Assembly (NCBI GenBank): GCA_021770755.1
Contig: JAETQI010000001.1
Coordinates: forward strand, 124,001 to 188,000
Source of the DNA: Lachnospiraceae bacterium
Lineage (GTDB): Bacteria > Bacillota > Clostridia > Lachnospirales > Lachnospiraceae
Length of the DNA stretch: 64,000 bases
Reading direction: 5' to 3'
Each line of letters starts with the position of its first letter. The stretch's first letter is position 1. This document shows, piece by piece, positions 1-21,347 of this stretch. The position numbers and the translations under genes were made by a program. The notes below the pieces were generated by a model. The model was not told where the DNA came from. It ran no database searches and was given only the letters and a program-made list of their open reading frames with translations.

Positions 1-2
1 AG

Positions 3-416
3 TTTTATGAATTGTTTAAGCCTTTTGGCTATATTAATACACATCTGGGTAATGAACGTTTGGGGGAAGTGTATGTCCTTGATAAAAAAGGAAATGTTGT
101 TCTTGTACTTCAAGGACGAATTGGGTATACGAAGCTAAAAGTTACAATCAAAAATGAAAGGCTTGCCGGAGCTGTAAATTTAAAAGCAGCAGAGGGAAAG
201 ATTCAATGTCAACTGACAAAATATCAAATGTGTATTGGTTGTAAAGCCTGTGAAAGTGTTTGTAAACACAATGCAGTCAGAATAAAAGAATTAGAAGATG
301 GAAGCATTTCGTATAAGATTGATGATGAAAAGTGTGTAAGGTGTACCGAGTGCGTGAATCATTTCAATGCAGGATGTTATTTAAGAAAAGTGCTTACCAT
401 CAAGAGGGAAGGATAA
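3..416 (+). CDS. sspD: C-terminal part of PAPS-reductase/SspD-like protein with a 2[4Fe-4S] ferredoxin domain (5' end outside window)
   Basis: The reading frame is open right up to the window edge, so this is the tail of a longer gene; a TTG at 12 is not a credible start. The tail carries two cysteine clusters: a standard CxxCxxCxxxC (CIGCKACESVC) and a second CxxCxxC followed by a more distant cysteine (CVRCTECVNHFNAGC). Members of the PAPS-reductase family used in DNA phosphorothioation (DndC, SspD) activate DNA for sulfur insertion and carry Fe-S clusters. That this tail belongs to such a protein is inferred from the next three genes (DUF4007, ATPase, cysteine desulfurase). The ATP-pyrophosphatase domain itself is not visible here. 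It ends 1 nt before the next gene and is surely cotranscribed with it. Confidence 0.6.
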   Translation, partial: FYELFKPFGYINTHLGNERLGEVYVLDKKGNVVLVLQGRIGYTKLKVTIKNERLAGAVNLKAAEGKIQCQLTKYQMCIGCKACESVCKHNAVRIKELEDGSISYKIDDEKCVRCTECVNHFNAGCYLRKVLTIKREG

Positions 417-417
417 G

Positions 418-1278
418 ATGGAGAACAAGGTTAATTACAAAATAAAAGGGCATGAAAAGTTTCCATTACGTGAAGGATGGATGAATAAGGGAATCTCCGC
501 AGCAAAAGAGAATGGAACTCACATTTTCCTAGAGGATAGGGGGCCTGATGTGTTAGGCGTTGGTACGAATATGGTGAAGTCTATCCGTTATTGGATGCAG
601 GCGTGCGGAATGTTAATAAAAGATGGAAATAAAGAAATACTTTCGGATATGGCAGAGATTATTTTTGAAAAAGACCCATATTTTGAGGATTTCTTTTCTC
701 TGTGGCTACTTCATTCAAATATTGCAAAGAATATTGAGCAGGCGACAGTATGGTATATGTTTTTTAACAAATTTAAAGCGGATTCTTTTTCCAAGGCAGA
801 TTTGCATGAAAAGATGAAACAGGAGCTCTTTCATTATGTGGGGCAGAATGTGACGGAGAGTTCATTAAGAGATGATATAGATGTATTGCTAAATATGTAT
901 TCTAAGGGTGAGATTGGCAATGAAGACCCTGAGGACAAGATTGTATCTCCATTATCTGTGCTGGGAATCTTGAAAAAGGAAGATGAGATATTTTATAAAG
1001 TGCAGCCGGATTTAAGAAAGATAGATGATGAGCTGGTATTATATGAAATTAGCTGTCTGTTCGAAAATGAGAAATCCCTTAGTATCGAACGAATCGCAAC
1101 AGGAGAAAGGAGTCTTGGGGCGATATATCATATGACGATGGTTACTGTAAATAAATATTTAGACGATCTTGATTCTTTGGGATATATCCGAGTGGACAGA
1201 ACAGCAGGCCTTGATATGGTTTATCCGTCAAATATGAAGGAACCAATTGGGGTTATAAAGGACTATTACAACAAATGA
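418..1278 (+). CDS. sspB: DUF4007 family protein, SspB-like
   Basis: A 286-aa protein with the layout of DUF4007 proteins: an N-terminal part (HEKFPLREGW near residue 12), a helical middle with a DP-x-FEDFF-x-LWLLH stretch (about residues 85-100), and a C-terminal winged-helix-like end (SLGYIRVD). DUF4007 is the domain of SspB, the nicking subunit of the single-strand phosphorothioation system SspABCD. Neighbours on both sides (Fe-S PAPS-reductase-like protein and large ATPase) support that role. The start ATG has a GGAAGG site upstream and lies 1 nt after the previous stop. The stop overlaps a possible ATG of the next gene. AT-rich codon use matches the whole island. No catalytic residue can be assigned by eye, so the nickase activity is inferred from the family. 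Confidence 0.65.
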   Translation: MENKVNYKIKGHEKFPLREGWMNKGISAAKENGTHIFLEDRGPDVLGVGTNMVKSIRYWMQACGMLIKDGNKEILSDMAEIIFEKDPYFEDFFSLWLLHSNIAKNIEQATVWYMFFNKFKADSFSKADLHEKMKQELFHYVGQNVTESSLRDDIDVLLNMYSKGEIGNEDPEDKIVSPLSVLGILKKEDEIFYKVQPDLRKIDDELVLYEISCLFENEKSLSIERIATGERSLGAIYHMTMVTVNKYLDDLDSLGYIRVDRTAGLDMVYPSNMKEPIGVIKDYYNK

Positions 1279-1292
1279 GGGTGGATAATTAT

Positions 1293-4200
1293 ATGGCAAT
1301 TAGTAATATAAGCCAAATAGTCAAGTTAAATGGTAATTTTAAAAATTCCATTAATCTGTACTTGAACTTAAATAAAAAAGAAAAAATAGAAAGTTATATT
1401 CCCACAAAATCGTCTCTGAACGTATTGAAGCGATACATGAATTCCGTGAAACAAAATAAAAATCATTCCACGATACTAATAGGTTCTTATGGCAAGGGAA
1501 AGTCTCATCTGTTGTTAATTCTTTTGGCGATCACCAGCATGGAACGGTCAAAAGAAAATGATAGTGTTGTGCGAGTGTTATTAAAGCAAATGCAATCAGT
1601 AGATGTAGACGCGTATCATTTGGCGAAAGATGTCTGGAAGAACAAGGGACGTTTCCTGCCGGTTATTATCTCAGGTTGCCAGGAGGACGTCAGTCGCTCT
1701 TTTATGATTGCATTAAATGATGCGTTAAAAAGAGAAAAGGTAGCAGACCTTATGCCTGATACTTTCTTTAGTATTGCAAGAGAAACTGTTGCACGCTGGA
1801 AGACAGAGTATCCAGCAGTATATGAAAGTTATGAAAAAGCGTTACAGGAAAAGGGAACATCAGCAGAGGAAATCGAACATGGTTTGAAAGTTTGCAATCC
1901 TGAACAATTAGAGTTATTCAGAGAAATTTATCCTTCCTTAATGGGGGGGGAACAGTTTAATCCGCTTACAGGAAGTGAAGTGCTGCCTATGTATCAAAGT
2001 GTAGCCGATAAGCTGCGTGAGGAGTGTGGTTATAGCGGAATTTATATTGTCTTTGACGAATTTAGTAAATTTATTGAGGGACAGGAAAAACATGCGCTTG
2101 GTGGAAATATGAAGTTTCTTCAAGATATATGTGAGTTGGCTAATGAATCAAAGGAAACACAAATTTATATGACAATGGTGGCTCACAAGTCCATTAAAGA
2201 GTATGGTGCTTATCTGCCGGAGGCGGTTATTAATGCGTTTATTGGAATTGAAGGCAGAATTGAAGAAGTTATTTTTAACACGTCCTTTAAAAACAGCTAT
2301 GAATTGATTCAGAATGCCATAGAAACGGATACAAATAAACTTGCAGAAATACCAGATTCGAGTAAGTTTTTTGGAAGGGAAAAGGTTGAAAAGTATTATA
2401 AAATACCAGCTTTTAGAACTGCTTTTACGAGTAAGGATTTTGAAGATATCATTGTGAAGGGGTGTTATCCGCTTAACCCTATTTCCGCATATGCATTACT
2501 AAATATCAGTGAAAAGGTTGCACAGAATGAGCGAACCTTATTTACATTTATATCAAAAGAAGAACCTAATAGCATGGCACAATATGTGTCTGATCATACT
2601 TCGAGGGATGAGTGGATTGTTACACCTGATAGGGTATATGATTATTTCCAAAATATGTTCAAGAAGGAAAAAGGAAATGAACGTGTTCATATAGAATGGT
2701 TAAATGCAGAGTATGCGATATCAAAGGTAAAAGAGCCAGATAAAATTCGTTTGTTAAAGACATTGGCTGTTCTTAATATTATTAATAAATTTGATGAGAT
2801 GCCACCGACAGAGGAAATTCTAAAGATTGCTTCGGGGCTGCCCAACGCTGTGGAAATTTTAAGTTCATTAGTATCAAAAGAATTAATTTATAAAAAAGAG
2901 ACTACTAATTGCTATGTTTTTAAGACGAGAGCAGGTATTGCCCTTAAAACGGAAATCAAGAAACGTAGGGCATTAAAAGATACACCTAATCTACCAAAAG
3001 TATTTAATCTGATTAGCAATACACAGTACATTTTGCCGAAAAGATACAATAACGAATATTCTATGACTAGATATTTCAGATATGAATATTTGGATGTGGA
3101 GGATTTTTTGCAGATCGATAATATGAATGTGTATTTGGAAGATGGTAAGTTTCAGGACGGAAAGGTGATGGCTCTTTATTCCCTGAAGAATGTGGATAGG
3201 ACAAAAGAGATTCAAAATAAGGTAGAAACTGCTGGTATTGAAAATATAGTTTTGATTTATGCAAAAACACCATTTATCTTGTTAAATAAAGCCATAGAAT
3301 ATGAGATTTTGCAGGATATAAAGGCAGATGCAAAATTCATGAAAGAGAACGAGATTTTATCAAAAGAATTGAGTGTGATGGAGGAAGATATTGTCAACAT
3401 ATTATCGGACTTCTTAGAGGATGAATTTGGGGATGTAAAATCGCGTGTTATTTTCTATTATGATGGACAGAACTGGGTCTTTGACGAAAACATAACGATT
3501 AATGCAGCCGTTGATGCTGTTTGTGACTACTTTTATTCAGAGACAGTGGTTATTAACAATGAGTTGATTAACAAACAGTTTATCAAAACCGCGCCAATCA
3601 AGAAGTCAAGAAAAACGATTATGGAAAACATAATGAATAAAAGTTCTGATGAGTATTATAGAACTGGAACAAGTGCGGAGTCTACCATTTACCGGGCTGT
3701 AATGGTTAATTCAGCAATATTGTCAAAGGACAAACCACAAAAAGTTCAACATCTGTTGGGAATGTTTGAAGAATTTTTTGATGGATGTGTAGAAGAAAAA
3801 AGGTCTTTGAGTATTCTTGTTAATCAGTATAGTGCAAGGCCGTATGGGATGAGAGCAGGAGTTCTTCCTATTTTGCTTGCACACATTTTATCACAGAAGA
3901 AAGAGGATATTATCGTATATTACGGAGATAGAGAAACAGAACTTACTGTAGATTCTATTATCAATATGGTGGACTATCCGGACAAGTATTCTATTTTTAT
4001 CTCCAGGGACAGTGCAGACAAAGATAGGTATTTACGGGCGCTGTCTGAGTTGTTTGCAGATAAGGCAGATAATAATCTTTCAGGAAATAGAATTGCAAAT
4101 ATCTTAACCTGTATGCAGCGATGGTATCGGGCTTTGCCACAGGTTACTAAGAATATCCGAAGGGAAAATGAGTACATTTCCAATAAGCAGATTTTGAAAG

Positions 4201-4877
4201 CTTTACCCAGGCTAAAAAATGTTATGCAACGTATGGATGTGAATGCATATGAAGCTGTTTTAGAGACATTACCTGAAATATGTGGTGGTGTAGGTTATGA
4301 AGAGACAATTCGTCTTCTTCGGACGATGAAAGTGACACTGAATGGTTATATGGATTGGCTGCTTTCAAGGGTTGCAGAGGATACAAGGAACATTTTTTCA
4401 TCAGATAAAAAAGATGATTTGATTCATACATTGAAGGACTGGTATGAGAAGCAAAGTGATGTTGCAAAGCATGGATTATATAATGCGGCTGTGTCAGGTT
4501 TTATGTCTTGCATTGCTGATATAGATACCTTTGATGAGTATTCTGTTGTACTGAAGCTGATAAAAATTGTCACAGAAATCCATGCAGATTCGTGGAATGA
4601 TGATTCTTATGCAGAGTATATTGAAAAACTTAAAGGTATAAAAACTGAGATTGAAGCGATTGGAGATGAAACCAAGAGGGAAAATTGCGTTCTTACATTT
4701 ACTGGTAAAAATGGAGTAACAATCCAAAAGTATTATGCACCAGTTGATTTGGATGATGGTGCGGTGTTTAGAAACATTTTAGAGGATCAGTTAGAAAGCT
4801 TTTCTGATCTTGATGTGAATGTGCGTGTCGCAATTCTTCTCGAGATGATAGAAAAGGTGATGAGAAAAGAGGAATAG
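1293..4877 (+). CDS. sspC: Large P-loop ATPase, SspC-like
   Basis: About 1194 aa. The N-terminal P-loop is GSYGKGKS (residues 64-71), followed by a Walker-B-like FDEF (D255, E256). The rest is long and mostly helical without a domain I recognise. Its place between an SspB-like protein and a cysteine desulfurase suggests the ATPase of the sulfur-modification complex. The YGxGKSH loop and FDEF motif also resemble the big ATPases of BREX systems (BrxC/PglY), so that is the main alternative. I chose ATG 1293 because GAGGGTGG sits 8 nt upstream; ATG 1275, which overlaps the previous stop, has no ribosome site. The distant copy at 15300-19535 shares the same loop and Walker B and appears to be a paralogue. 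Confidence 0.6.
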   Translation: MAISNISQIVKLNGNFKNSINLYLNLNKKEKIESYIPTKSSLNVLKRYMNSVKQNKNHSTILIGSYGKGKSHLLLILLAITSMERSKENDSVVRVLLKQMQSVDVDAYHLAKDVWKNKGRFLPVIISGCQEDVSRSFMIALNDALKREKVADLMPDTFFSIARETVARWKTEYPAVYESYEKALQEKGTSAEEIEHGLKVCNPEQLELFREIYPSLMGGEQFNPLTGSEVLPMYQSVADKLREECGYSGIYIVFDEFSKFIEGQEKHALGGNMKFLQDICELANESKETQIYMTMVAHKSIKEYGAYLPEAVINAFIGIEGRIEEVIFNTSFKNSYELIQNAIETDTNKLAEIPDSSKFFGREKVEKYYKIPAFRTAFTSKDFEDIIVKGCYPLNPISAYALLNISEKVAQNERTLFTFISKEEPNSMAQYVSDHTSRDEWIVTPDRVYDYFQNMFKKEKGNERVHIEWLNAEYAISKVKEPDKIRLLKTLAVLNIINKFDEMPPTEEILKIASGLPNAVEILSSLVSKELIYKKETTNCYVFKTRAGIALKTEIKKRRALKDTPNLPKVFNLISNTQYILPKRYNNEYSMTRYFRYEYLDVEDFLQIDNMNVYLEDGKFQDGKVMALYSLKNVDRTKEIQNKVETAGIENIVLIYAKTPFILLNKAIEYEILQDIKADAKFMKENEILSKELSVMEEDIVNILSDFLEDEFGDVKSRVIFYYDGQNWVFDENITINAAVDAVCDYFYSETVVINNELINKQFIKTAPIKKSRKTIMENIMNKSSDEYYRTGTSAESTIYRAVMVNSAILSKDKPQKVQHLLGMFEEFFDGCVEEKRSLSILVNQYSARPYGMRAGVLPILLAHILSQKKEDIIVYYGDRETELTVDSIINMVDYPDKYSIFISRDSADKDRYLRALSELFADKADNNLSGNRIANILTCMQRWYRALPQVTKNIRRENEYISNKQILKALPRLKNVMQRMDVNAYEAVLETLPEICGGVGYEETIRLLRTMKVTLNGYMDWLLSRVAEDTRNIFSSDKKDDLIHTLKDWYEKQSDVAKHGLYNAAVSGFMSCIADIDTFDEYSVVLKLIKIVTEIHADSWNDDSYAEYIEKLKGIKTEIEAIGDETKRENCVLTFTGKNGVTIQKYYAPVDLDDGAVFRNILEDQLESFSDLDVNVRVAILLEMIEKVMRKEE

Positions 4878-4879
4878 AA

Positions 4880-6013
4880 ATGATTTATTTGGACAACGCA
4901 GCCACTTCATATCCAAAACCAGAAACAGTTTATCAAAAGATGGATTGGGCGAATCGCAATATGGCTGTAAATGCAGGGCGTGGTACATATAGGGTTGCAC
5001 AAGAGGCATCTGACTTGATTGAAGATACGCGAAAAAAATTAATAGAGGTGGTTCATGGCAGTGGCGTAGAATCTGTTATTCTAACATCATCGGCGACGAT
5101 TTCTTTAAACATTATATTGAATGGATTATTGTTCACAAAAGGAGACGTGGTGTATATATCGCCATACGAGCATAATGCTGTTGCACGTACATTACATCGG
5201 ATTGCTAAGGAAAAAGGGATTCGGATTCGGGAATTGCCTTTGAAAGAAAACTTAGAAATAGATTTGGAAAAGACAAAATATCAGTTTATAAAGGATAGAC
5301 CGAAATGTGTATGTTGTACACATGTGAGCAATGTTACAGGATATATTTTACCAATAGAGAAAATTTTTCAGATGGCAAAAGAATATGAGGCGATTACGGT
5401 GATGGATGCAGCACAGTCTTTCGGATTGGTGGATATAGATGTAAGAATATGCAAGGCGGATTTTATTGTATTTGCAGGTCATAAGACATTGTATGGACCA
5501 TTAGGAATTGCTGGATTTATTGACTGTTCAGTAATTGATCTGATGCCATTTCTTGTAGGTGGGACTGGAAGCGATTCTTTGAAACTAGACATGCCACAGA
5601 CAAAGCCCGGCAGATATGAGGCAGCAAGCAAGGACGTGGTGGCTATTGCAGGGTTGTATGAGGCTTTATCGGTCTTAAACCAGAAAGAAAATTTCAACAT
5701 TGAGAAAAAACTTACAGAGTATACGGTAACATGTTTAAAAACTTTGAAGAATGTAATTCTCTACACGCCAGAGAGTGCCGAAAATCATATCGGAGTCATT
5801 TCCTTCAATGTGAAAAACTATAAGTCGGAAGATATCGGGACTATTTTGGATGAGGAATTTGATATAGCCGTAAGAACCGGATATCATTGTGCGCCATATG
5901 TACATAAATATTTAGCAGATGAGTTGTATTTAGGAACAGTGAGGATTGGCTTAGGACAGTTTAATACAAAGGAAGATATAGACCAGTTAGTTGATGCGAT
6001 AAGTGAACTATAG
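4880..6013 (+). CDS. sspA: Cysteine desulfurase (class V aminotransferase), SspA/DndA-like
   Basis: A 377-aa PLP enzyme that takes sulfur from L-cysteine as an enzyme persulfide. Family marks are the N-terminal IYLDNAATSYPKP, the PLP lysine in AGHKTLYG (Lys202) and the persulfide cysteine in TGYHCAPYVH (Cys337). Length is normal for the SufS/CsdA-like branch. In this operon it most likely supplies sulfur to the Fe-S PAPS-reductase-like protein for DNA phosphorothioation, the role of SspA or DndA. It starts 2 nt after the ATPase stop behind an AGAGGAA site. A general Fe-S assembly role is possible, but no scaffold gene (SufU/IscU) is beside it. Confidence 0.85.
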   Translation: MIYLDNAATSYPKPETVYQKMDWANRNMAVNAGRGTYRVAQEASDLIEDTRKKLIEVVHGSGVESVILTSSATISLNIILNGLLFTKGDVVYISPYEHNAVARTLHRIAKEKGIRIRELPLKENLEIDLEKTKYQFIKDRPKCVCCTHVSNVTGYILPIEKIFQMAKEYEAITVMDAAQSFGLVDIDVRICKADFIVFAGHKTLYGPLGIAGFIDCSVIDLMPFLVGGTGSDSLKLDMPQTKPGRYEAASKDVVAIAGLYEALSVLNQKENFNIEKKLTEYTVTCLKTLKNVILYTPESAENHIGVISFNVKNYKSEDIGTILDEEFDIAVRTGYHCAPYVHKYLADELYLGTVRIGLGQFNTKEDIDQLVDAISEL

Positions 6014-6032
6014 ATATGGTGAAAGAGGTCAG

Positions 6033-7742
6033 ATGATGAACAATAAGAAGTATATTGACTATTTGAATTCGTTGCACAATTATAATGCCCAGAATGAAAA
6101 TGCATATGGAGAGAAAAATGTAGATAATCCTTATTTTAGGGAGGTAATGGTACGAGTAGGTCTGTGTGATTATATTAAGGATAATCTTACAGGGGAAGCG
6201 CCACACATCACAATTTTAACAGGACATGCCGGAGACGGTAAAACCAGTATTATGTATCAAGTGTTAACAGATTTGAAAGCAGGATTTGATACAAAGGAAA
6301 AACTGAGTGAGGTGAGTTTGCCAAATGGTGCGAAATGCTTATGTATTAAGGATTTTAGTGAACTGTCAGAAGAATCAGATAACCAGATCAACCGGTTTTA
6401 TGTAATGAGAAAAGCAGTTGAGATGGTAGAAAATGGAAATTATGTATTTATGGTTGCGAATACGGGCCCTCTGATCAATACATTTGGTGAATTATTTGAT
6501 ACTGATGAGGAAAAGGAAAAAGCCCGGATTCAGTTGATAAATTTGATGGATAATAATACTGGCAAGGTTATCAATATATGTGGTGTTCAACTATGCGTTA
6601 TAAATGTCGCCATGGTTGATAATGTCTATTTTGCAACTGAGTTTTTAGAGAAGATTACTCAAAATTCATTATGGGAAGGTTGTAAGGGGTGTCAGAAATG
6701 TGAGTATTGTCACATATACAGGAATCGCCAGCTTATTGTTGAAAATAGGACTAAAGTTTTTGAATTTGTTCATAATCATTTTATATGGTTAACGGAATAT
6801 GGAACAAGATTAACGATTCGGAGTATGACAGAGCAACTGGCATATATGTTAACTGGTGGAATGTCCTGTGAGGAAGTTCGTCATAATGAAGCATATAAGT
6901 ATCTCTTTAGCAATTTGTTTTTTGGATATATCGGAACAAAGCAGAATGAACGTGCGCAAAATATTATAGCAGTAGACGCGGCAAATCGTTGTCTGTATGA
7001 CCACAAGAGACTGCGTGCAGACGAAAAACTGATAGTGGGAAAAGAGTATAAGGAGTTATTTGGAAAACAAATTGAAGAAATTGTTGTCGATGCAGAGCAG
7101 AGGAATGCATTTGTTAGTGGCTGGACAGAATTTCTGCGTAGAACATATTTATTTATGAATATTGTTACGGATAAGCAAATTATTTTACAAGATTATGAGG
7201 ATGTGTTTTCGAAGCAGTATAAAAGGTATCTTGCACTTAGAGATGGGACTGATACACCATCAAAGGCTGATGCAAAGTTAATTGCAGATGCGTTGTCCAT
7301 GATTTATGTTGGAACACCGAGCGATGGTACAGAAATTCCGCTGACACTTAGCAGAGAGTCTGGAATCACACAGAATGTGCAGTTAATTACAGGAACGATA
7401 CCAGTACGAAAGCTTCATGTAGAACAAATTAAAACAAAAGATAGTGTTTTTAATAAAGGGAGAGACAGATATGAGCTGAAATTGAGAATAGACAAAAAAG
7501 TTTTAAGTACTGTCTTGACGCTGCCAATGTTAGACTATTTTGAGGAGTTGAAAAATGGCGTAATCGCTACAAATATTGACCCGCAGTTATCTCATGGCGT
7601 AGAAAGTTTAAAAGCCCAGATATCGGAGATGCTTAAAGAGGATGAGGACGAAAATACTGTGGAGATTGTAGTTCTGAAGAATGGTGGTAACAATAATATT
7701 CGTCTGGAGTTAACAGATGATGGCAGGATAAGAGAAGTATAG
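6033..7742 (+). CDS. dptF: DNA phosphorothioation-dependent restriction protein DptF
   Basis: About 569 aa. A P-loop GHAGDGKT lies at residues 64-71, and a cysteine-rich stretch (CKGCQKCEYC, near residue 215) may hold a metal. Size, P-loop position and the order F-G-H with the two following genes fit DptF (DndF), the ATPase component of the restriction module that acts together with sulfur-modified DNA. A GTG at 6003 would overlap the desulfurase; ATG 6033 or 6036 follows AAAGAGG and is preferred. The family call rests on gene order and general layout rather than on alignment. Confidence 0.7.
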   Translation: MMNNKKYIDYLNSLHNYNAQNENAYGEKNVDNPYFREVMVRVGLCDYIKDNLTGEAPHITILTGHAGDGKTSIMYQVLTDLKAGFDTKEKLSEVSLPNGAKCLCIKDFSELSEESDNQINRFYVMRKAVEMVENGNYVFMVANTGPLINTFGELFDTDEEKEKARIQLINLMDNNTGKVINICGVQLCVINVAMVDNVYFATEFLEKITQNSLWEGCKGCQKCEYCHIYRNRQLIVENRTKVFEFVHNHFIWLTEYGTRLTIRSMTEQLAYMLTGGMSCEEVRHNEAYKYLFSNLFFGYIGTKQNERAQNIIAVDAANRCLYDHKRLRADEKLIVGKEYKELFGKQIEEIVVDAEQRNAFVSGWTEFLRRTYLFMNIVTDKQIILQDYEDVFSKQYKRYLALRDGTDTPSKADAKLIADALSMIYVGTPSDGTEIPLTLSRESGITQNVQLITGTIPVRKLHVEQIKTKDSVFNKGRDRYELKLRIDKKVLSTVLTLPMLDYFEELKNGVIATNIDPQLSHGVESLKAQISEMLKEDEDENTVEIVVLKNGGNNNIRLELTDDGRIREV

Positions 7743-7753
7743 GAGGCTTGAAC

Positions 7754-9265
7754 ATGAGGACATTTCCTAGTTGGATGGAAGATGATTACAATAAAATTGC
7801 CAATAAGGGGCCGTTATCTACCTTGATTTTTGGAAATAGATTTAAGGCTGATCAAACGCTATATGAGTATTTAATTGAATTTCTTCTAATATTTGTTTCT
7901 GCGAAAAATGAAGATTTGAAGGAAGGGAAAATGCAATTTCATGACGTGACAGGCGAACATAAACTCAGCTATTGGGTAGAACCAAGAATGGCTCTGCGAA
8001 GATTTATCTTTTTTGATAAGTCAAAGAAAAAAGGGTCTATTCCGGAAGATTTTATAGCATACAGTGAAATGGTAAATTATTTAAATGATAAGATGGATGT
8101 GGCTGATAGGGAATCAGCTAAGGAGTATATAGAGGATATTCAAGATTTATTTCATGGATATGCAGCAGTGGTAAAAAATAGGTTTTGGGGAGCGCAGGCA
8201 CTATTGCCTATATGTCCGGAGTTTATTTTATGCGGAGTAGATCCAACAGAGGCAAAACGAAGGAAGGATGTAAATTGGGAAAATGATCCAGGCTCGCTCG
8301 ATACAAAATTTGATTTTAAGAGACATAACTTTTTGTCACGTGGAGGAGAATTGTATTATTTGCATTTACTGCAAGGGTTAGAAGGGGATCGAGACAGACA
8401 GGAGCGGCTCGTCAGATTATTAAATGATCTAGTGAGCGGACAATGTAAAAAGATCTCTAAAATGGCAGGATATGTGCAAGATACATGGGAAAAGAAGTAT
8501 TCTCTTGACAAAAAGGTCTTGTCTCAAAAATTAGAAGTGGCTTACATTCCAGCAACAGGATATAAAGAATGTGGAAGCTATAGCGTAGATGAACTTATTA
8601 GTTTTCTTTCATGTAAATTGCATCCGATTACAAGGGTTGAAATTCTTGCAAAGGGTGTAATGTTTCAAATCATGAGAATGATGTCTTACAGGGTTGCAGA
8701 TTATCTTGATATAGAAAAACCAGCATGGATTGTTGATATGAAGGGTGAGACAACAGATACAGTTAAAAAAATTGCTCATGGAGCATTTCTAAATATAGAG
8801 TCACACTTTATGAGCGCTATAAATAAAATGGCAAACGAGGCAGGGATTGAAGAAGAACGAATGAAAAAAGTACGTGAGGCGCGTATAAATTCGTTGGATA
8901 TCTTTAAAAGTAAAGGGAAAGAGTTACAGTGTATTATCCCAGTGTCGGGACCATTTGAGAGATTTAGTCTTTCCGAAGATGTGATTCGCTTTTTGGTGCT
9001 TTCATTAGTGGCACCGGGAGACAAGATGACATTAAAAATGTTTTTGGAGAAACTATATTATAATTATAGAATCGTAATCGGGCCAGAAGAATACAGGCAG
9101 AGTCTGAAAAGTATAAATATGGATTCGTCGTTGGCAAATTGTTTTTCTGAAAATGTTGTTGCATTCCAGTGTTTTTTGCGTTCGACAGGTTTTTTAAAAG
9201 AATTGTCAGACGCGACATCTATTGTAGTGAATCCATATGAGTCGATTGAGGAGGCGGAGGCATGA
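7754..9265 (+). CDS. dptG: DNA phosphorothioation-dependent restriction protein DptG
   Basis: About 503 aa with no nucleotide-binding loop or membrane segment. Position between DptF and DptH and the length fit DptG (DndG), a structural or bridging subunit of the restriction complex whose biochemical role is not well defined. ATG 7754 follows AGGAGG with a 7-nt spacer; a TTG at 7748 lies too close to that site. The stop overlaps the ATG of dptH by 4 nt (ATGA), which implies translational coupling. Identification is by context; nothing in the residues alone would name it. Confidence 0.6.
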   Translation: MRTFPSWMEDDYNKIANKGPLSTLIFGNRFKADQTLYEYLIEFLLIFVSAKNEDLKEGKMQFHDVTGEHKLSYWVEPRMALRRFIFFDKSKKKGSIPEDFIAYSEMVNYLNDKMDVADRESAKEYIEDIQDLFHGYAAVVKNRFWGAQALLPICPEFILCGVDPTEAKRRKDVNWENDPGSLDTKFDFKRHNFLSRGGELYYLHLLQGLEGDRDRQERLVRLLNDLVSGQCKKISKMAGYVQDTWEKKYSLDKKVLSQKLEVAYIPATGYKECGSYSVDELISFLSCKLHPITRVEILAKGVMFQIMRMMSYRVADYLDIEKPAWIVDMKGETTDTVKKIAHGAFLNIESHFMSAINKMANEAGIEEERMKKVREARINSLDIFKSKGKELQCIIPVSGPFERFSLSEDVIRFLVLSLVAPGDKMTLKMFLEKLYYNYRIVIGPEEYRQSLKSINMDSSLANCFSENVVAFQCFLRSTGFLKELSDATSIVVNPYESIEEAEA

Positions 9266-12200: not shown

Positions 12201-14463
12201 AGCGTTGTTAAGAAGCGATGATTCTCATCAGCAGGATTACAATATTATAGGTTTTAGTACAGGGAAAGGTGCATATGGACAATACAATTTAACGATTACG
12301 GCTAGAAAAACGATTCTGGAAACCATAAGAAAGAAATTGGAAAACCGACTGTATAGCTTGTTTCAATGGGACAAACAACATATAAAGAAAGTCGCGCAGT
12401 TTTGCATTGACGAAGCAAGTGGTTTGGATGGCATCAGTCTTTTGGCAGCAACGAACCCAAAGGATGAAAATATACGTGAATTTATGGCATATGTTTTGAC
12501 ATCTCTCAGGGAAGAAAAATTGGAAGGCGGGAGTGTGCTTAAAATTGTTGTTCATCTGGACTCCTATAAACACTGGTTTGGAGGAGATATAGATAAAGAT
12601 GACGAAAATGCTGCACTCCGTCCTGATTTTCTGGTATTAGAAGCATTCCTTGATGATAATGACAAACTAAAGTTGAAAGCAACAGTAACAGAATGCAAGA
12701 CATCTATATATGCGAATGCTGAACAGCACAAGGAACACGCTATTGAGCAAGTGAGACAGGGCGTTCGCAGATTGAGTAGGATTTTTAACCCAAAATCGAA
12801 ATCTATTAAAAGAAGATATTGGTTCGCACAGTTATATCGTGCTTTGGCGTTTGCACAAGTGACCTTTAGCAATAATACAGAGGAATTTGCGGAGTTAGCT
12901 ACAAAACTTAGAAGTGTTCTTGATGGAAATTACGAAATTGAGTGGAATGGAAGAGTTCTTGGATTCTGGTTAGATATGCAAGGTGATGAGGAGGTTGAAA
13001 CTGTTTCAGGCGAAGAAAAAATATGCATATATGATATTCCGCAAAAGATCATTCAGTCTCTTTTATTAAAAGAAAATCTAGACGAAGTTGAGTATGTGAT
13101 GATTGATCCAAAAGAGGTTGTTGAAGATGAGGAACAGCAGGAGAAAATCAGGGAGCGAGAAAAGCTTCTTGATGACGAGATAGCAACAACACAGAAAGGA
13201 AAAGCAAAGAGTATGCAAGTATCAGAAGTTGCGAGACCGCTTGTATCACCAAAGAATGATCCGCAGGATGCACATACAGATGATGAAAAAAGAGAAGAAA
13301 AATTTGGTCGTGAGCCGGAAAGTGCAGAGAATATGAATAAAGTCAATCTTGACGATATTCGTGTTTTAATTGGTAAGAGTAAAACTTTGTCAGATGTTTA
13401 CTGGGAATTTGGAAGTCGGCAAATGGCAAATCGTCATCTGTTGATAACAGGAACTTCGGGACAAGGAAAGACATATAGCATTCAGACAATGTTGTATGAG
13501 CTGGCAAAGAGCAATATTTCTTCAGTAATCTTTGATTATACAGAGGGATTCCGGCTTGATCAGCTTGAAACTGAGTTTGTCGAGAGCATGAACCACAAGA
13601 TAAATCAGCATATTATAAAACTTCAGGGTGTTCCTATCAATCCATTCAAAAGACAGGAGCAAGATTTTGCAGGAATGAAAATACAGGATACGCCCGCAGA
13701 TGTTGCAGGAAGGTTTGCTAATATTTTGACACATGTGTATGGTTTTGGCGATCAGCAATATGCTGCTATTTACGAGGCAACTAGAGTTGGTTTGGAAGAA
13801 TATGGAGATGGTATGGATATGACTCATTTCCAGGAAGAATTGATAAAGATACAGCCGAAAAATGCTCATGCAAAAACGGTTGTGTCGAAGATGACACCTT
13901 TTTTCCATAGCATTGAATTTAATAAGGATGCAGAGTTTGATTGGGGTAGTATCTTATATGCATCAGAGGCAAAGATGAATATTTTTCAACTCACAATGAT
14001 TGATAGGGAAATGCAGGTTATTGTGACCGAACTAATGTTGTGGGATGCATGGTATTATACGAAAAATTATGGTTCCAAAGAAAATCCTTTTGTAGTGGTC
14101 TTAGATGAAGCACAGAATCTTTCTCATAAGGAGAATTCACCTAGTAAGGCGATTTTAACAGAAGGCAGAAAATTTGGCTGGTCAGCGTGGTTTGCTACAC
14201 AGTCTTTAAAGGTTCTTGCAGATGATGAGGTTGTAAGGCTAATGCAGGCGGCGTTTAAGCTCTATTTTAAGCCTACGGATGAGGAAATCACAAAAATGTC
14301 CAAGCAGCTCGATCCCACTAATCCATCGCTTTGGATTGGCGCATTAAAGGCTTTGAAAAAGGGACAGTGTATTGTAGTGGGGGATCGCAAAAAGGATGAT
14401 GGCACTTTTGGAAGTACAAAGCCTACAGTGGCCAACATTACTTCGTTTAAGGATAGGTGTTAG
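9262..14463 (+). CDS. dptH: DptH: very large restriction subunit with PD-(D/E)XK-like motif and C-terminal HerA-like ATPase
   Basis: 1733 aa, the expected size for DptH (DndH). The C-terminal third is a HerA/FtsK-type ATPase: Walker A GTSGQGKT (residues 1397-1404), Walker B VVVLDEAQ (D1615, E1616), and a TEGRKFGWSAWFATQS stretch as in HerA proteins. Just before it, residues 1105-1150 read RPDFLVLEAF (D1122) then VTECKTS (E1144, K1146), the spacing of a PD-(D/E)XK nuclease core. A charged linker at about 1270-1360 separates the two. Inference: the subunit moves along DNA and cuts it, guided by modification state. The N-terminal 1000 residues are unassigned. It is the last of the DptFGH set; the next start is 1 nt beyond its stop. 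Confidence 0.75.
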   Translation: MKYIVNRIVELILGNEPSADNETMVRVDGFDNIAVYEQVAERITSLLEEKGLTVDVKLAKNKWNSFQKNPENTTVLQSMKQHGWIAEEDSVTHYRNLHTSNVVVLMGTEDEEDKGGLANCNSITPELLIKTLNGKYHLVFGEDSLTDQDNALVDRLYKDLFEYEAVDICKLSDIADSWEGKITNGKDFMELFFEGLPAWGLPYRRLELPGQKDVMGRKNVLAGCRRFIVRQPFNSKMSITQYNKYMKKIDYYNSGEAELVKYPSDHECWSEQGVKDYDEFSKVLKEFIVGENLQENTRKLLKVDYCIVEDVLDIGVPPEKKKPKNKVKTLVGEPLEIFANALFVTLAHLKNVDIRVDNIKFDFTPAEIVCMYSDVEHDEEKQQLLETWKSICTHCGGVIEYLNKRMWMVNENDITLTCFPENFLIPAQAYHYIEEDLYVKPAAANKSVSKINFSTCYEVDGEIYHHYFQWKFDMANSWDKNFGELCLQDFCSTKDGNFIPVSEISKINSLIFSKSEEEFFDRLKESEIGFKFNLTEYIDKKIPKDEKVVSAKFDEAGKAFTEFSYAVANEGFYTCIAKDHSELSKLCDAYVSLGKYLRERTFPENLKWILDAYINAFNIIGDTSVLTSQKDIESCIVPAWHPAALEKLNDQKIFFLDGCEEWWNDAQGKDKISEKEITDTLTGLLQMSMIQSTLDIFPSYGQVYFGAIASFGAFSLYGRSDIKNENRLRDMIHKDAIFDDDFDRNEVSRLNDNAKMIYSVMSDYAKAFPNSADNLSIVFIDPSELQPIVAAVYRFIEVRRKKDERAKIDISLRILVRPENKGGRNYLAYWMDEFFSQDESVNIHTYLNEWNNKSALEKLLNGNNDIAFVMDILKVNNLGFVSSYKDTCLAPSQCRFPIVYKPTPISSTSVKRTIELSQPQFKVAFEHTQIVRYRNNMEKIPDGVYIASKEVGIDADGLAIVHFLHEKAYWVVCVDSGMDGALLRSDDSHQQDYNIIGFSTGKGAYGQYNLTITARKTILETIRKKLENRLYSLFQWDKQHIKKVAQFCIDEASGLDGISLLAATNPKDENIREFMAYVLTSLREEKLEGGSVLKIVVHLDSYKHWFGGDIDKDDENAALRPDFLVLEAFLDDNDKLKLKATVTECKTSIYANAEQHKEHAIEQVRQGVRRLSRIFNPKSKSIKRRYWFAQLYRALAFAQVTFSNNTEEFAELATKLRSVLDGNYEIEWNGRVLGFWLDMQGDEEVETVSGEEKICIYDIPQKIIQSLLLKENLDEVEYVMIDPKEVVEDEEQQEKIREREKLLDDEIATTQKGKAKSMQVSEVARPLVSPKNDPQDAHTDDEKREEKFGREPESAENMNKVNLDDIRVLIGKSKTLSDVYWEFGSRQMANRHLLITGTSGQGKTYSIQTMLYELAKSNISSVIFDYTEGFRLDQLETEFVESMNHKINQHIIKLQGVPINPFKRQEQDFAGMKIQDTPADVAGRFANILTHVYGFGDQQYAAIYEATRVGLEEYGDGMDMTHFQEELIKIQPKNAHAKTVVSKMTPFFHSIEFNKDAEFDWGSILYASEAKMNIFQLTMIDREMQVIVTELMLWDAWYYTKNYGSKENPFVVVLDEAQNLSHKENSPSKAILTEGRKFGWSAWFATQSLKVLADDEVVRLMQAAFKLYFKPTDEEITKMSKQLDPTNPSLWIGALKALKKGQCIVVGDRKKDDGTFGSTKPTVANITSFKDRC

Positions 14464-14464
14464 C

Positions 14465-15286
14465 ATGGTAAAACAAGTCAATATAAATTTCCATCAGACA
14501 TTTAAGCCAGAGGGTCAGTACATCAGCAGTATCTTAGATATTGCTGATGGAAAGTCATGGCATAGTTTGAAGGACATTTCTGGAATTACAGGAATTCCAC
14601 AAGGGGTATCCAGTGGTAAGGTAGAGCCACATATTAGTTATGCCGAATATATGGGGTTGGTTAAAAGTGAAAAGAAAGACAAGCAAATTCAGTTAACAAG
14701 GACTAAGTTAGGTGAATGTGTTCGCATGGAAGATCCAGGCTTACAGGAGCTTTTGACTAAATTGTTGTTGCATGCCATGATTTTGCGCCGGGAGGAAGGT
14801 GCAGGCATGTGGAGTTCGATTTTTAGAGAAATTTTTCCAAAGTATCATAATGGAATAAAAAAAGAGATGCTTATTTTAGAATTAAATCAGATTTACGATA
14901 ATAAGGTTACTGCGAAAAATATTGCCCCCTTTTTTGGCTCATATGATGACTTTTTCTCAGAAATTGGAATTTTAAATGTAGAAGATGATGTGGTTATATG
15001 TAAATCGCTTGTATATAACAAGGAATTTATTTATCTGTATGCGTTGGTGTTATGGGCATATTGGGAGGAGTATTATCCTGGGCAGGAGGAGATATCATCG
15101 GCTCAATTTGCAGAATTAAGATTTGGCAAGATCTTCGGATGGGATACACAGAGCGAGTATGAAGTGCTGGAACATTTAGCGGACAAGGGATTACTGCGAA
15201 TGAATCGACAATTAATGCCATACACGATTTTGAAACTGACAAATAAGGAAGCACTGATTAGTAGCCTGTATAGTGAATTGTGTTAG
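14465..15286 (+). CDS. Second DUF4007-like winged-helix protein, paired with the next ATPase
   Basis: 273 aa. A reading frame open further upstream would run into dptH, but ATG 14465 sits 1 nt after the dptH stop and is the natural start. The N-terminus looks like a helix-turn-helix (SLKDISGITGIPQGVSSGKV). The middle has DPGLQELLTKLLLHAM, laid out like the DPYFEDFFSLWLLHSN block of the DUF4007 protein at 418-1278, and both end in a winged-helix-like segment (ADKGLLRMN here, DSLGYIRVD there). I infer a diverged DUF4007 paralogue, not proven without alignment. Like the first copy, it is directly followed by a large YGxGKSH ATPase, so the two genes probably act together. Confidence 0.55.
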   Translation: MVKQVNINFHQTFKPEGQYISSILDIADGKSWHSLKDISGITGIPQGVSSGKVEPHISYAEYMGLVKSEKKDKQIQLTRTKLGECVRMEDPGLQELLTKLLLHAMILRREEGAGMWSSIFREIFPKYHNGIKKEMLILELNQIYDNKVTAKNIAPFFGSYDDFFSEIGILNVEDDVVICKSLVYNKEFIYLYALVLWAYWEEYYPGQEEISSAQFAELRFGKIFGWDTQSEYEVLEHLADKGLLRMNRQLMPYTILKLTNKEALISSLYSELC

Positions 15287-15299
15287 GAGGACACCAACA

Positions 15300-18200
15300 A
15301 TGGAGTTAGGAAAAATACTAGAGTTTAGAAAAGATTTATATTTTGAGGGTGCAGTTCAGGCAGATTGGTTTTATGATCAGGAAAAAGCTGTAAAAGTATC
15401 AGAAAATTTTGTGTTTCATGGTAAGCAATACTTTGGGGTTGAGGATCAGGGGATTGGAAATAAAAAATGGATTGATACAATCAGTCTCGTCAAAGAATTA
15501 GCAGAAAAGATGGCAGACGATCATGCCAATGCCCTTACATTGGCCATTGCTGATTATGGAACAGGAAAATCACATTTTGCTGTAACTTTGGGGCAGATTT
15601 TTTCCGGAAAAGATTATATGCCGCAAACATATAATAAAGTTATATCTAATATATCTAGTATTGATCCTGCTGCTGCCAAGCATATTCAGGCATTAACTGA
15701 TGAAAGAAATTTTGTTATGGTAATTAACGGAATGAGAGATTTTAATCTGCATTCTGAAATACTAAAGGCAGCACAAAAGAGTTTAAAATTATACGGACTG
15801 CCAGATGATGGTTTAAAAAAACTGAACAGGGCTTTAGATACAGCAGAGACGTTCTTTAGCCGTAATATAAAGAATTCCATTACTTTATTTGAAGAAAAGG
15901 CAAAGGAATTGGGCTGGAATGAAACAGGTAATCACTTGATAGAAAAAATCCATGACAATCTTATGACGGATGATGCCGCCTTTGATATTGTAAATGCGGT
16001 TTATACAGAGATTAATGGACAGGAAATTAGATGGGATGAAGGGCTTTCGGCTGCCAATATTCTTGAAATGCTTATATCAGAGTACTGTGGTATGAACGGC
16101 CGGTTTGAGCACATTATCTTATTATTTGATGAGTTTGGGAGATATCTGGAATATGCTTCTGGGGTTAATGCTGCAAAATCAGGAGATTCTGCATTACAGC
16201 AGATTTTTGAGACGGCACAAAATGCAGGTGGTGTTTTGCAGGTGATCAATTTTATCCAGTCGGATATTAAGACTTATTTGCAACGTGTAGATCAAACAAA
16301 AAATATTAGTCGGTATATTGGACGTTACGATGCAAGTGACAAATATTATATTTCCTCTAATCTGGAAACTGTCTTTGCGAATTTGATTCAACGTAAGGAT
16401 AAGAAAGCTTTTGAAGAAAATGTGGTTTTATGGCAAAAAACAAATGGAATTCAGTGGAAATATATTTTTGAAAAGTTAAATGCATGGCTTGTCACTAAAG
16501 GGATATGGAAGGATTATGCTTTGTTTCGCAAGATAGTAGTAGAAGGTATTTATCCAATGCATCCGCTTTCTACATTTATGTTAACACAGTTATCTGATTA
16601 TTTGCAGAATCGATCTTCTTTAACTCTGATTAGTCAATACATAGAAAGCTCCAAATCCGTTGACATTTCAGAAAATTATTTTGTGATTATGCCTGAAACA
16701 TTAATGCTTGGTGATTTATATACTGAAATGCTTGCAGCAGAGCAGGAGGGAAGGCAGCCGTCACAGCAGTGCATTCGGTATGACAATATTTTAAGGAAGT
16801 ATGGCGATAAACTATCAGAAAAGGCATTGGCAGTACTTAGATCCAATTTAATTCTTAGAATTCTTCGTTTTAGAACGAAGGATTACACAGATGCTAAGGA
16901 GGCATTGGCACTTTGTAGTGGACTGTCCATTATAGAAATTGAGGAAGAACTGAAATGGCTTGAAAATGAATATGCAGTTTTGGGTTTTGATGATCATGCC
17001 GGATGTTTTGACTTTATGGAAGAGTCAAATGGGGCACATGATTTCAAAGTATTAAAGAAGCGTCTTGTGGCGGGAGCTGTTATTGATAAATCATTATTAC
17101 AGGATTTTAAGATTAAAGAGATAGCAGGTGTATTAGAAAAGCAGACTACAAACTTTGCACTGCAGCATAGGATAACGACAAATGAATGGTTGTTCGAACA
17201 GGAATTGTATGCAATAGAGCAATTTGATGAGATAGGGGTAAAAACATCTTTAAAAGAGTGGAATAACGCAACTGGTTCTACGACTGCCAAGGGAAGGTTG
17301 ATATGGCTGTATGCGAATAAGGATACAGAAGCTTTATATGTGGAACGTGCTCAAATATTAGTTAAGGAGTTCGTTGGGACACCTATCATTGTGATGTTAT
17401 TAAATGATGCCGATAATAGGCTTTACGATGCACTTTTAGAGTATAATGTATTAGATATGCTAGATGATGTAAATCGAAATAAGTATGATCGTTATTATCA
17501 GGCAGATTTTGGACAGGCAGAGTGTAATCTGAGAGACGAGTTTTTAGAGCTAAAGAAAAAACGAATTCGTATTGGTGAGAAAGAAATAGAGGAATTGAAG
17601 ACGAGAATGCCTGTGTTTCTGACAGGGGTTTTTGAAGAACTATATCCTGCTGCGATTCCGTTTTCGTTTGATGGTTTTATAACAAAGGGAAACAATTTGG
17701 GGGGTAAGGGAGGTGCTTATTACTGTACGATTATTAAGATGTTGCTTTCTAATTCTGTCAATGAAACAACAATCCATAATTTTCCCAGCGATGTTCGAAA
17801 TAGAATTGAGGCGTTATTGATGACAACGAACGCGACTTCATGGAAGTGCATAGATCAGGAATTCAGAGTGATTCCGCCAGAAGAAAATAAAGCACGTCAA
17901 GTATATGACAGAATTGTGGCAAGCATCACTGAAAATACAGAATATGGATGCAAAAATATTTTTGACACATATTGCCGTCCGCCATATGGAATGAGTGAAG
18001 ATGTTGTTACACTTATGATGGCTGTTATTTGTGCAAATCTTAATTATTGCCTGAGATTTCAATATAACGGTTCAACGATAAATATCAACAATTGGAAGGA
18101 ACTTGTTGTAATTAAGGATAAGAAGATTGATATTGATGTTGTAAAGCAATCTGTGTTTGTAATGGTAGATGCAGGTGCAGTTACAGGGAAGTATATGCGA

Positions 18201-19535
18201 TTCTTTGACAAGGTTCAATCTAATAGGAGTATTGCTGAGGTTGTGTCACTTGAAAAAACGCTATCAAATATGATGGAGATAGATGAGATTCCAGAAGAAT
18301 TGAATACGCAATATCTACTTGCAAGAAAATATCTGGATTCAGGTAAAAAAGCATTTCATGAATGGAGGAGTCATATAGACAAAATTGATGAAAAATTGGA
18401 GGCTGCTGTGGAAGAAAAGAGTCTGTATGAAGCCCTTAAGGGGTTGAAAATGGTAGCAGATATTCCTTATACGAAGATATTTAAGGACAATGGGTATGAA
18501 ATAGATGGAGATTCAAAGGCTTCTGTTAAAAGGATGGTTGACAGTTTAAGAAGTATAGTAGATCAGCTAATTGCTCCTTATGTCGCAAGTTTGTATTGTA
18601 AAACAGTTGAGGGAATTAATACGTTTAGAAATCACAATACAAAAATGATGGAAATGCTTGAAGGACTTGGCTTTCCAGAGTATGCTTTAATGGTTAAGAA
18701 GCGTAGGGATGAGGAACTTGGTAATATCGATGAGATTCGTTCGCGTGAGGAACTCAGAGTAGATTGTGAGAAGTTTTTGGAAAAAAGCCATATTACTAAA
18801 TATGTTACTTATGTAAATATTTGTCATTTTTTAAAGGAAGGAAAAGAATTACAGGCGAGAGTACAAAAATATGGTGCCGCATTGGGGAAGGATGCTCAAA
18901 GAATTTGTGATAATATTAATGGCAGAGTCAATGAACTGAAAAAGAGTCACGATCGAACCATGAAAGATATGTCAGATATCTGGGATGATCTTTACGAAGT
19001 GAAATGTGCCGAAGATGTGGAGAATTTACTGGACAATATTGCTACCGTTTTGCAGAAGGGAATACCCGAAGCAGATCAGTCGAGTTTTGAGGAGTTGCAG
19101 GGAAGTCTGCAGGAGTTTTTGGAGGATATTGATGTAATTAAGAATGCATCACAGTCAAGAAAAAAGTGTAAAATGATTTCAGAAGCAATGCTTGAAAAAT
19201 ATGAGAAGATAGAATTCGATTTTGATGTGCTTTCCGTTTTGGAAGGGATTATATCTGAATTTGAGAAGGCGCTCGAAGAAAAAGAGCAAAGATGGATTGC
19301 GGATGAGTTAACGCTTGGCGATAAAAGTAGAAATGCTGTTCATCACTGGAAAGAAAAATTAAAAATTTTACCAGAATTTTTATCAAAGGAAACAATCGCA
19401 ATGGTTAAAATACTTGATCAAGAGGCAGATGAAATAATCAAGGAAAGCAAGATAGAGGATGTTATATTTTACTTTGATAAATTGGACGAAGCAGAAAAGA
19501 GAGAATGCATACAGAAGCTGCAAAGCAGATTGTAA
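15300..19535 (+). CDS. Second large P-loop ATPase with C-terminal coiled-coil region, SspC/BrxC-like
   Basis: About 1411 aa. P-loop ADYGTGKSH (residues 84-92) and Walker B ILLFDEFGRYLE (D277, E278) match the motifs of the ATPase at 1293-4877 (SYGKGKSH; IVFDEFSKFIE). Residues after about 1000 are rich in Glu/Lys/Leu and look coiled-coil. ATG 15300 follows AGGAGG by 9 nt; an upstream in-frame ATG would overlap the previous gene. As the last gene of the phosphorothioation operon it seems to be a duplicated SspC-like motor with its own DUF4007-like partner. An alternative is a BREX-type PglY/BrxC ATPase recruited to the operon. Its stop codon lies inside the left arm of the inverted repeat described next. 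Confidence 0.6.
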   Translation: MELGKILEFRKDLYFEGAVQADWFYDQEKAVKVSENFVFHGKQYFGVEDQGIGNKKWIDTISLVKELAEKMADDHANALTLAIADYGTGKSHFAVTLGQIFSGKDYMPQTYNKVISNISSIDPAAAKHIQALTDERNFVMVINGMRDFNLHSEILKAAQKSLKLYGLPDDGLKKLNRALDTAETFFSRNIKNSITLFEEKAKELGWNETGNHLIEKIHDNLMTDDAAFDIVNAVYTEINGQEIRWDEGLSAANILEMLISEYCGMNGRFEHIILLFDEFGRYLEYASGVNAAKSGDSALQQIFETAQNAGGVLQVINFIQSDIKTYLQRVDQTKNISRYIGRYDASDKYYISSNLETVFANLIQRKDKKAFEENVVLWQKTNGIQWKYIFEKLNAWLVTKGIWKDYALFRKIVVEGIYPMHPLSTFMLTQLSDYLQNRSSLTLISQYIESSKSVDISENYFVIMPETLMLGDLYTEMLAAEQEGRQPSQQCIRYDNILRKYGDKLSEKALAVLRSNLILRILRFRTKDYTDAKEALALCSGLSIIEIEEELKWLENEYAVLGFDDHAGCFDFMEESNGAHDFKVLKKRLVAGAVIDKSLLQDFKIKEIAGVLEKQTTNFALQHRITTNEWLFEQELYAIEQFDEIGVKTSLKEWNNATGSTTAKGRLIWLYANKDTEALYVERAQILVKEFVGTPIIVMLLNDADNRLYDALLEYNVLDMLDDVNRNKYDRYYQADFGQAECNLRDEFLELKKKRIRIGEKEIEELKTRMPVFLTGVFEELYPAAIPFSFDGFITKGNNLGGKGGAYYCTIIKMLLSNSVNETTIHNFPSDVRNRIEALLMTTNATSWKCIDQEFRVIPPEENKARQVYDRIVASITENTEYGCKNIFDTYCRPPYGMSEDVVTLMMAVICANLNYCLRFQYNGSTININNWKELVVIKDKKIDIDVVKQSVFVMVDAGAVTGKYMRFFDKVQSNRSIAEVVSLEKTLSNMMEIDEIPEELNTQYLLARKYLDSGKKAFHEWRSHIDKIDEKLEAAVEEKSLYEALKGLKMVADIPYTKIFKDNGYEIDGDSKASVKRMVDSLRSIVDQLIAPYVASLYCKTVEGINTFRNHNTKMMEMLEGLGFPEYALMVKKRRDEELGNIDEIRSREELRVDCEKFLEKSHITKYVTYVNICHFLKEGKELQARVQKYGAALGKDAQRICDNINGRVNELKKSHDRTMKDMSDIWDDLYEVKCAEDVENLLDNIATVLQKGIPEADQSSFEELQGSLQEFLEDIDVIKNASQSRKKCKMISEAMLEKYEKIEFDFDVLSVLEGIISEFEKALEEKEQRWIADELTLGDKSRNAVHHWKEKLKILPEFLSKETIAMVKILDQEADEIIKESKIEDVIFYFDKLDEAEKRECIQKLQSRL

Positions 19536-19759: not shown

Positions 19760-19831
19760 TTTATTGTATGCTGAGATTGGGATGATTGCAGTGCCTGAAA
19801 ATAGCTGTATGCAGGATTGGGAGGTTTGGGC

Positions 19832-21343: not shown

Positions 21344-21347
21344 GCGA

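Follow-up and report, generated by a model that had tools for sequence, protein, structure and literature searches.

The window analysed in this study is a stretch of 64,000 nucleotides from a Lachnospiraceae bacterium (window 1-64000, equal to G000:C95:124001-188000). It begins inside an operon of nine genes in the order sspD-sspB1-sspC1-sspA-sspF-sspG-sspH-B2-C2, all on the plus strand and nearly free of gaps. The first four genes form an Ssp-type modification set, sspF, sspG and sspH are restriction genes, and the last two encode a second DUF4007 protein (B2) and a second AAA+ ATPase (C2). In this study, we found that the B2-C2 pair sits in the restriction cassette and not in the modification set. 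This assignment is well supported, and protein distances, the locus of genome G523 and two Pseudanabaena plasmids agree on it. We regard it as rather probable that the nine genes encode an anti-phage restriction-modification system based on phosphorothioate marks, with two paralogous scanner pairs, in which B2-C2 would be the DNA-targeting and loading arm of the restriction cassette. Ssp restriction-modification is already known; the second pair within the restriction cassette was not described in the literature searched. G and L numbers denote compared genomes and loci, and "own" denotes the genome and locus of the window.

The B2-C2 Pair Is Linked to the Restriction Genes

The two genes of the pair are as follows.

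14465 to 15286 (frame 14396-15286), plus strand: B2, a second, divergent DUF4007/SspB-like protein of 273 amino acids (aa); DUF4007 match of 27.7 bits at a cut-off of 27
15300 to 19535 (frame from 15273), plus strand: C2, a second, divergent SspC-like AAA+ ATPase of 1411 aa; weak SspC matches, the best at 2.4e-15

The homologues indicate that B2 starts at the ATG at 14465, one base past the sspH stop, and that C2 probably starts at the ATG at 15300.

The occurrence of the pair was surveyed in the class (391 genomes) and in the phylum (398 genomes). In the class, C2 was found in four genomes and SspG in three, and all three SspG genomes have C2. The fourth C2 genome, G011 (L012), carries H-B2-C2 on a 4.7-kb contig with only the end of H. 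In the phylum, the C2 profile matched 21 genomes, strongly (at least 361 bits) in eight; the region around the match was inspected in 11 of the 21, and the other 10 scored SspC-like at 46 bits or less. SspG matched 12 genomes, strongly (more than 200 bits) in nine, and eight of these nine are the eight C2 genomes. No C2 of this kind was found in G428, G432 and G597, which have weak SspG matches. Named relatives in a set of 84,980 species were Lachnospiraceae UBA935 (59% identity), MD308 (80%) and Eisenbergiella tayi (72%).

The order SspH-B2-C2 was present in all 14 fetched loci that include the front of C2 and the preceding sequence. The entire F-G-H-B2-C2 cassette lies on one stretch in 10 of the 14, counting L011 with SspG in two frames and G282 with C2 in three. 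The G523 stretch includes only the tail of F, and F-G is on a separate contig in G627 and G461. Because the second pair recurs at an unchanged position even in distantly related members of the phylum, its occurrence exceeds chance. The two-frame SspG of Eisenbergiella tayi (L011:2414-3960) and the three-frame C2 of G282 (L014/L015) may each reflect decay or a sequencing error.

Protein distances were compared across eight loci, including a partial C2 of G282 (403 aa) and a partial SspH of G627 (794 aa). The distances of B2 correlated with those of SspG (r=0.98) and SspH (0.91), and those of C2 with SspG (0.84), whereas the correlation was 0.65 between B2 and SspB1 and 0.59 between C2 and SspC1. 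The G523 locus has a modification side of the BrxP type, and its SspC1 groups with those of own, G282 and G445 (support 100/97). Its restriction side groups with the G748 group, as found for SspG (100/99), B2 (99/96) and C2 (95/96). The modification and FGH-B2-C2 modules of G523 are also in opposite order.

Two sister plasmids (loci L060 14992-25342 and L062 11942-23002), one from Pseudanabaena galeata CCNP1313 and one from Pseudanabaena sp. ABRG5-3, have similar flanks around different restriction cassettes. The flanks are 83.5% identical over 7.0 kb containing SspB1 and SspC1, and 93.9% identical over 2.8 kb on the cysteine desulfurase side. Between them, one plasmid has F-G-H and other genes; the other has a B2-like protein, a 142-aa protein, a C2-like ATPase of 1803 aa, PglZ and BrxL. 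The middles of the two plasmids gave no match to each other by blastn. The B2-like protein scored 84 bits with the B2 profile versus 34 with SspB1, and the C2-like ATPase scored 179 bits with the C2 profile and did not match SspC1. A relative of B2-C2 with PglZ and BrxL is a combination that deserves separate study.

This plasmid, in which a relative of the pair adjoins PglZ and BrxL, could suggest that B2-C2 is an independent BREX-like defence that lies behind SspFGH by chance. However, the pair is linked directly to SspH at every one of the 14 loci, its distances are closely correlated with those of SspG, and the operon proteins searched had no PglZ or BrxL match. We consider this explanation highly improbable.

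B2 and C2 as a Diverged Second Pair

Profile comparison aligned B2 with SspB1 over 259 columns (E=2e-19) and C2 with SspC1 over 831 columns (9.4e-31). The homology to SspB and SspC thus spans most of the length of B2 and more than half of that of C2. In a tree of 39 DUF4007 proteins (24 B1 and 15 B2), B2 formed one side of a branch with support 100/99. In the ATPase tree, C2 did so with the same support. This tree compared 41 halves (26 C1 and 15 C2), using the first 560 residues only; the truncated SspC1 of L013, the fragment from G599 and two of the three fragments from G282 were excluded, and the Pseudanabaena sequence is a long branch of unsure placement. A recent origin of the second pair as a copy of the first was rejected, as holding the two DUF4007 proteins of the window together as sisters cost 174 log-likelihood units (p=7.5e-5 in the approximately unbiased (AU) test).

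Residues were compared by conservation only, not by known catalytic residues of SspB. R18, W21, K24 and M52 were conserved in 23 of the 24 SspB1 sequences, with one gap, and W59 in all 24. Among the 15 B2 sequences, K24 and W59 were each found once, and R18, W21 and M52 in none. D86 and H99 were conserved in all 39 DUF4007 proteins. By the profile comparison, B2 has a DUF4007 fold homologous to SspB; it lies outside the SspB clade and does not keep the invariant residues. The C2 of the window has a P-loop YGTGKSH (Walker A GTGKSH) and a Walker B LLFDEFGRY. This Walker A was invariant across six aligned C2 sequences, and Walker B DEFG[RK]Y was present in 14 of 14 Bacillota C2 sequences that include the N-terminal part. 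Searches of the PDB by sequence with SspC1, SspH and the C2 profile gave nothing useful. On these sequence comparisons, B2-C2 is a real and old second pair of DUF4007 protein and AAA+ ATPase, and its divergence from SspB and SspC is deep.

We also considered whether B2-C2 is a second writer, which would share SspA and SspD and mark the other strand or a second motif. The extent of the homology to SspB and SspC is in keeping with this, and a modification gene is nearby in the loci with enough sequence. Against it, the pair has no adjoining sulfurtransferase of its own, B2 lacks the residues invariant in SspB1, the pair tracks FGH more than SspB1-SspC1, and its relative accompanies PglZ-BrxL in the sister-plasmid swap. 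We consider a second writer quite unlikely.

Gene Identities in the Operon

The seven genes preceding the pair are as follows.

1 to 416 (frame 3-416), plus strand: sspD, brxP-like PAPS-reductase-type sulfurtransferase; C-terminal 137 aa with two 4Fe-4S motifs
418 to 1278, plus strand: sspB1, DUF4007 (8.8e-80); SspB 7.6e-58; solved SspB 6juf 8.3e-14
1275 to 4877, plus strand: sspC1, AAA+ ATPase of the modification set; SspC 7.7e-109; P-loop YGKGKSH
4880 to 6013, plus strand: sspA, cysteine desulfurase; Aminotran_5 1.1e-79; SspA 2.4e-43
6003 to 7742, plus strand: sspF, P-loop NTPase (GHAGDGKT); best PADLOC match SspF 1e-28
7748 to 9265, plus strand: sspG; best PADLOC match SspG 9.4e-27
9262 to 14463, plus strand: sspH; DndH 8.9e-79 (best PADLOC match); SspH 1.6e-23; DUF87 5.1e-7; C-terminal HerA/FtsK-type ATPase

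The complete sspD encodes 583 aa and starts at L002:10665, 1.3 kb to the left of the window. In PADLOC, its product matched BrxP at 276 bits (1.2e-82) versus SspD at 48 bits (3.2e-13), and the match to DndC was weak (34 bits). This form is like the BrxP-like SspD with an Fe-S tail that was noted for a subset of SspD (PMC12839542). By homology, SspB1 is the predicted DNA-recognition and nicking subunit of the modification set.

A preliminary description of this DNA had placed nine reading frames in one plus-strand operon, and all were confirmed. Its view that an Ssp-type modification set is coupled with an FGH restriction set was borne out. PADLOC and profile searches matched the first four genes to the SspD, SspB, SspC and SspA models, and the adjacent SspB (DUF4007), SspC, PAPS-reductase-type SspD and cysteine desulfurase make up such a set, with a sulfurtransferase of the BrxP-like kind. 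F, G and H adjoin it and match the SspF, SspG and SspH models, the DndH model being the better one for H. The published SspFGH cassette has three genes; the one found here has five, F-G-H-B2-C2. The term "Dpt-type" used for the restriction genes suits only SspH, which is like DndH in its C-terminal third; F and G are divergent SspF and SspG. The second DUF4007/YGxGKSH ATPase pair proved real, with clades of its own and a constant place in the gene-order survey. The two pairs do flank FGH, but not as equals, since the first is part of the modification set, whereas the second accompanies FGH.

SspF and SspH of the Cassette

SspH has a motif RPD...ECK at residues 1120-1146, ahead of the HerA-like domain. 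It was invariant in all 13 SspH sequences from loci with the pair that reach this region, and we take it to be a PD-(D/E)xK-like nuclease motif. A profile of a sulfur-binding domain, made from three SspF sequences, matched the N-terminal part of six of 32 SspF sequences, all six being among the 13 from loci with the pair. The three profile sequences matched the solved sulfur-binding domain 8h0l at 1.2e-17, 9.3e-15 and 3.2e-12. In other enzymes, this domain reads phosphorothioate DNA (PMC6224610, PMC10853773). The rest of the cassette thus fits a predicted restriction function.

The SspF proteins of G748 (L047:6242-10816), G458, G656 and G627 are about 1500 aa long, and all four have a sulfur-binding-like domain. 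In that of G748, the only one in which NERD and kinase domains were sought, the sulfur-binding domain, a NERD domain and two protein kinase domains precede the P-loop part.

Published-Type SspFGH Loci Without the Pair

F, G and H of Candidatus Chlorohelix matched the PADLOC SspFGH models strongly (F 592 bits, G 638 bits). Sixteen of 33 plasmid records with SspG of the Chlorohelix kind were examined, mostly over 13-15 kb on each side of SspG. In these 16 published-type loci, no frame had B2 or C2 as its best match. In a tree of 33 SspG sequences, the 13 from loci with the pair formed one side of a branch (96/93); the tree has several long branches among the sequences without the pair, and the L011 sequence is a 353-aa piece.

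Comparison With Known Systems

The operon shares SspB, SspC, SspD, a cysteine desulfurase, F-G-H, the P-loop of SspF and the FtsK/HerA-like C-terminus of SspH with SspABCD-SspFGH of Vibrio anguillarum FF-93 (PMC8092258). It differs in having five restriction genes, whereas three were published, and its F and G are distant from the SspF and SspG models (98 and 92 bits in PADLOC, compared to 592 and 638 for Chlorohelix). The preliminary description had allowed that the second pair might be the published SspF/G/H; this was ruled out, as F, G and H have their homologues in the three genes preceding the pair.

BREX type 4 (BrxP-BrxC-PglZ-BrxL; PMC12839542) has in common with the operon a BrxP-like sulfurtransferase with an Fe-S tail, DUF4007, a BrxC/SspC-like ATPase and a cysteine desulfurase. 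In contrast, the DUF4007 of the operon is not fused to the sulfurtransferase, and the operon has FGH genes and two DUF4007/ATPase pairs. No match to PglZ or BrxL was found among ten window proteins searched. Elsewhere in the genome, a single PglZ-domain frame was found, on a different contig (G000:C99:12901-13374, 508 aa open). BRC and HerA/FtsK capture systems (PMC12839542, PMC10853773) share a HerA/FtsK translocase, DUF4007, a STAND-like P-loop protein and an ATPase that resembles BrxC or Orc/Cdc6. The core of BRC consists of PglZ and DUF6079, neither of which had a match at E<=0.1 among the window proteins; the operon also has SspG and a predicted phosphorothioate writer. A BREX fragment, which the preliminary description had likewise allowed for, was rejected for want of PglZ, BrxL and DUF6079 matches among these proteins, while BREX relations stand in the form of the relative beside PglZ and BrxL.

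DndFGH/DptFGH has the same F-G-H order, and among PADLOC models and plasmid matches, those closest to the C-terminal part of SspH are DndH/DptH. However, F and G match Ssp models, and B2-C2 is additional. PADLOC gave no match to DndF/DptF or DndG/DptG for F and G, nor to DndB, DndD or DndE in the operon. MADS was rejected as well: SspG matched MAD7 at 17.8 bits (cut-off 410), and the HerA part of SspH matched MAD8 at 52 bits.

A second SspB-SspC pair behind SspFGH was not described in the literature searched, which left supplements, subscription papers and preprints outside its scope. None of the parts consulted of PMC12839542, PMC10853773, PMC13326643, PMC8092258, PMC9240713, PMC11931770 and PMC12707154 describes such a pair.

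Genomic Setting

The operon has a G+C content of 36.7%. By comparison, window positions 24001-64000 have 53.1%, and the initial 6.4 kb of L002 have 52.2%. The low G+C (about 37%) extends from about 6.4 kb of L002 to about 22.5 kb of the window, or about 28 kb, as would be expected for an acquired island.

Behind the operon (window 19817-22475) are two genes resembling a PARIS/Nsn-like pair. The first encodes an AAA_15 ATPase (PADLOC NsnB 6e-52, AriA 1e-29) and the second a 375-aa protein with a weak AriB match (2e-4). No match to either gene was listed in the other fetched C2 loci. Just before sspD (L002:9693-10578) is a SocA/Panacea antitoxin-like gene (3.2e-19) and, overlapping it, a gene for 155 aa that matched NsnC weakly (2.5e-5).

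Discussion

In the published system, SspFGH is harmful to DNA without marks, and marks quiet it (PMC8092258). SspC rings are predicted to scan with SspB as the reader, and Orc/Cdc6 ATPases paired with HerA were suggested to guide a restriction apparatus to its sites (PMC10853773). In our proposal, SspA, SspD, SspB1 and SspC1 would write sulfur marks onto host DNA, and SspF, SspG, SspH, B2 and C2 would act as a single restriction cassette. B2, a predicted DNA-binding protein of the SspB fold, would locate target sites. C2, an AAA+ ATPase of the SspC/BrxC kind, would assemble on the DNA located by B2, and its use of ATP would load or activate the SspFGH translocase-nuclease at sites without the mark. 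Targeting, one of the roles raised for the second pair in the preliminary description, fits the data best: the linkage to the cassette is observed, and we infer the targeting step along with DNA modification, DNA binding by B2-C2, recruitment of FGH and checking of the sulfur mark. Nothing pointed to transport, another role raised there, although no test was directed at it.

In BREX, BrxC was proposed to take part in methylation as well as restriction and to control which of them occurs, and the two can be separated by point mutations (PMC13326643). By analogy, the duties combined in BrxC seem to be divided here between paralogous pairs, which hints at separate machines for writing and for checking the mark. 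A more specific version is that B1-C1 writes, whereas B2-C2, having lost residues typical of the writer, checks the same sites for sulfur, loads SspFGH if it is absent and can be plugged into PglZ-BrxL. We put this version forward only tentatively.

Several observations weigh against the targeting proposal or the evidence beneath it. When G523 was left out, the distance correlations were 0.97 for B2-SspG and 0.90 for B2-SspH, and 0.87 for B2-SspB1 and 0.75 for C2-SspC1; because B2-SspB1 rises to 0.87 without G523, the contrast rests largely on one locus. Constraining the G523 B2 to the own/G282 group, with L013 uncounted, was not rejected by the AU test (p=0.297). The B2 structure model from four sequences was poor (pLDDT, the predicted local distance difference test, 58.5; pTM, the predicted template modelling score, 0.41), with SspB 6juf and 6lb9 as its best, weak PDB matches (E=1.7e-3 and 2.4e-3), and the AlphaFold model of C2 was unusable (pLDDT 37.6). 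The SspF of the window was without the sulfur-binding domain in the profile search. G445, the ninth SspG genome, has a BrxP-type SspD-B1-C1-A-F-G followed by a 1704-aa gene at the H position, and the second pair was not found in it despite its BrxP-type modification set and FGH. C2-like C-terminal pieces of 509 aa (G599, where a contig ends) and 208 aa (G513, in the interior of a contig) occur, and no SspG, B2 or SspH was found in these two assemblies. Finally, SspFGH without such a pair is functional in the published system, so the pair is not needed for restriction in general (PMC8092258).

The absence of the pair from published-type SspFGH also bears on a different role, in which B2-C2 would be a brake: by binding host DNA or sensing the mark, it would keep SspFGH inactive until unmarked DNA appears. 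Published SspFGH without marks damages host DNA (PMC8092258), BrxA in BREX binds BrxC and inhibits its DNA binding (PMC13326643), and the linkage to FGH suits a brake nearly as well as targeting. However, a brake is not needed in general, since published-type SspFGH has no such partner. We consider this role doubtful.

Only about 10-15% of sites carry the mark in the Ssp and Dnd strains that have been studied, and the host is still spared by the nuclease (PMC8092258). In a 2021 survey, 2,211 of 2,678 sspBCD clusters had no known restriction partner (PMC8092258). How self is read is an open question (PMC8092258), for which a conserved pair tied to restriction genes offers a direct handle. If B2-C2 is indeed a checker, it would help to explain how a genome is protected by sparse marks: these could suffice because the decision would lie with the checker and not with the nuclease. 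As one exchangeable part, the pair also connects the Ssp, BREX and HerA capture systems.

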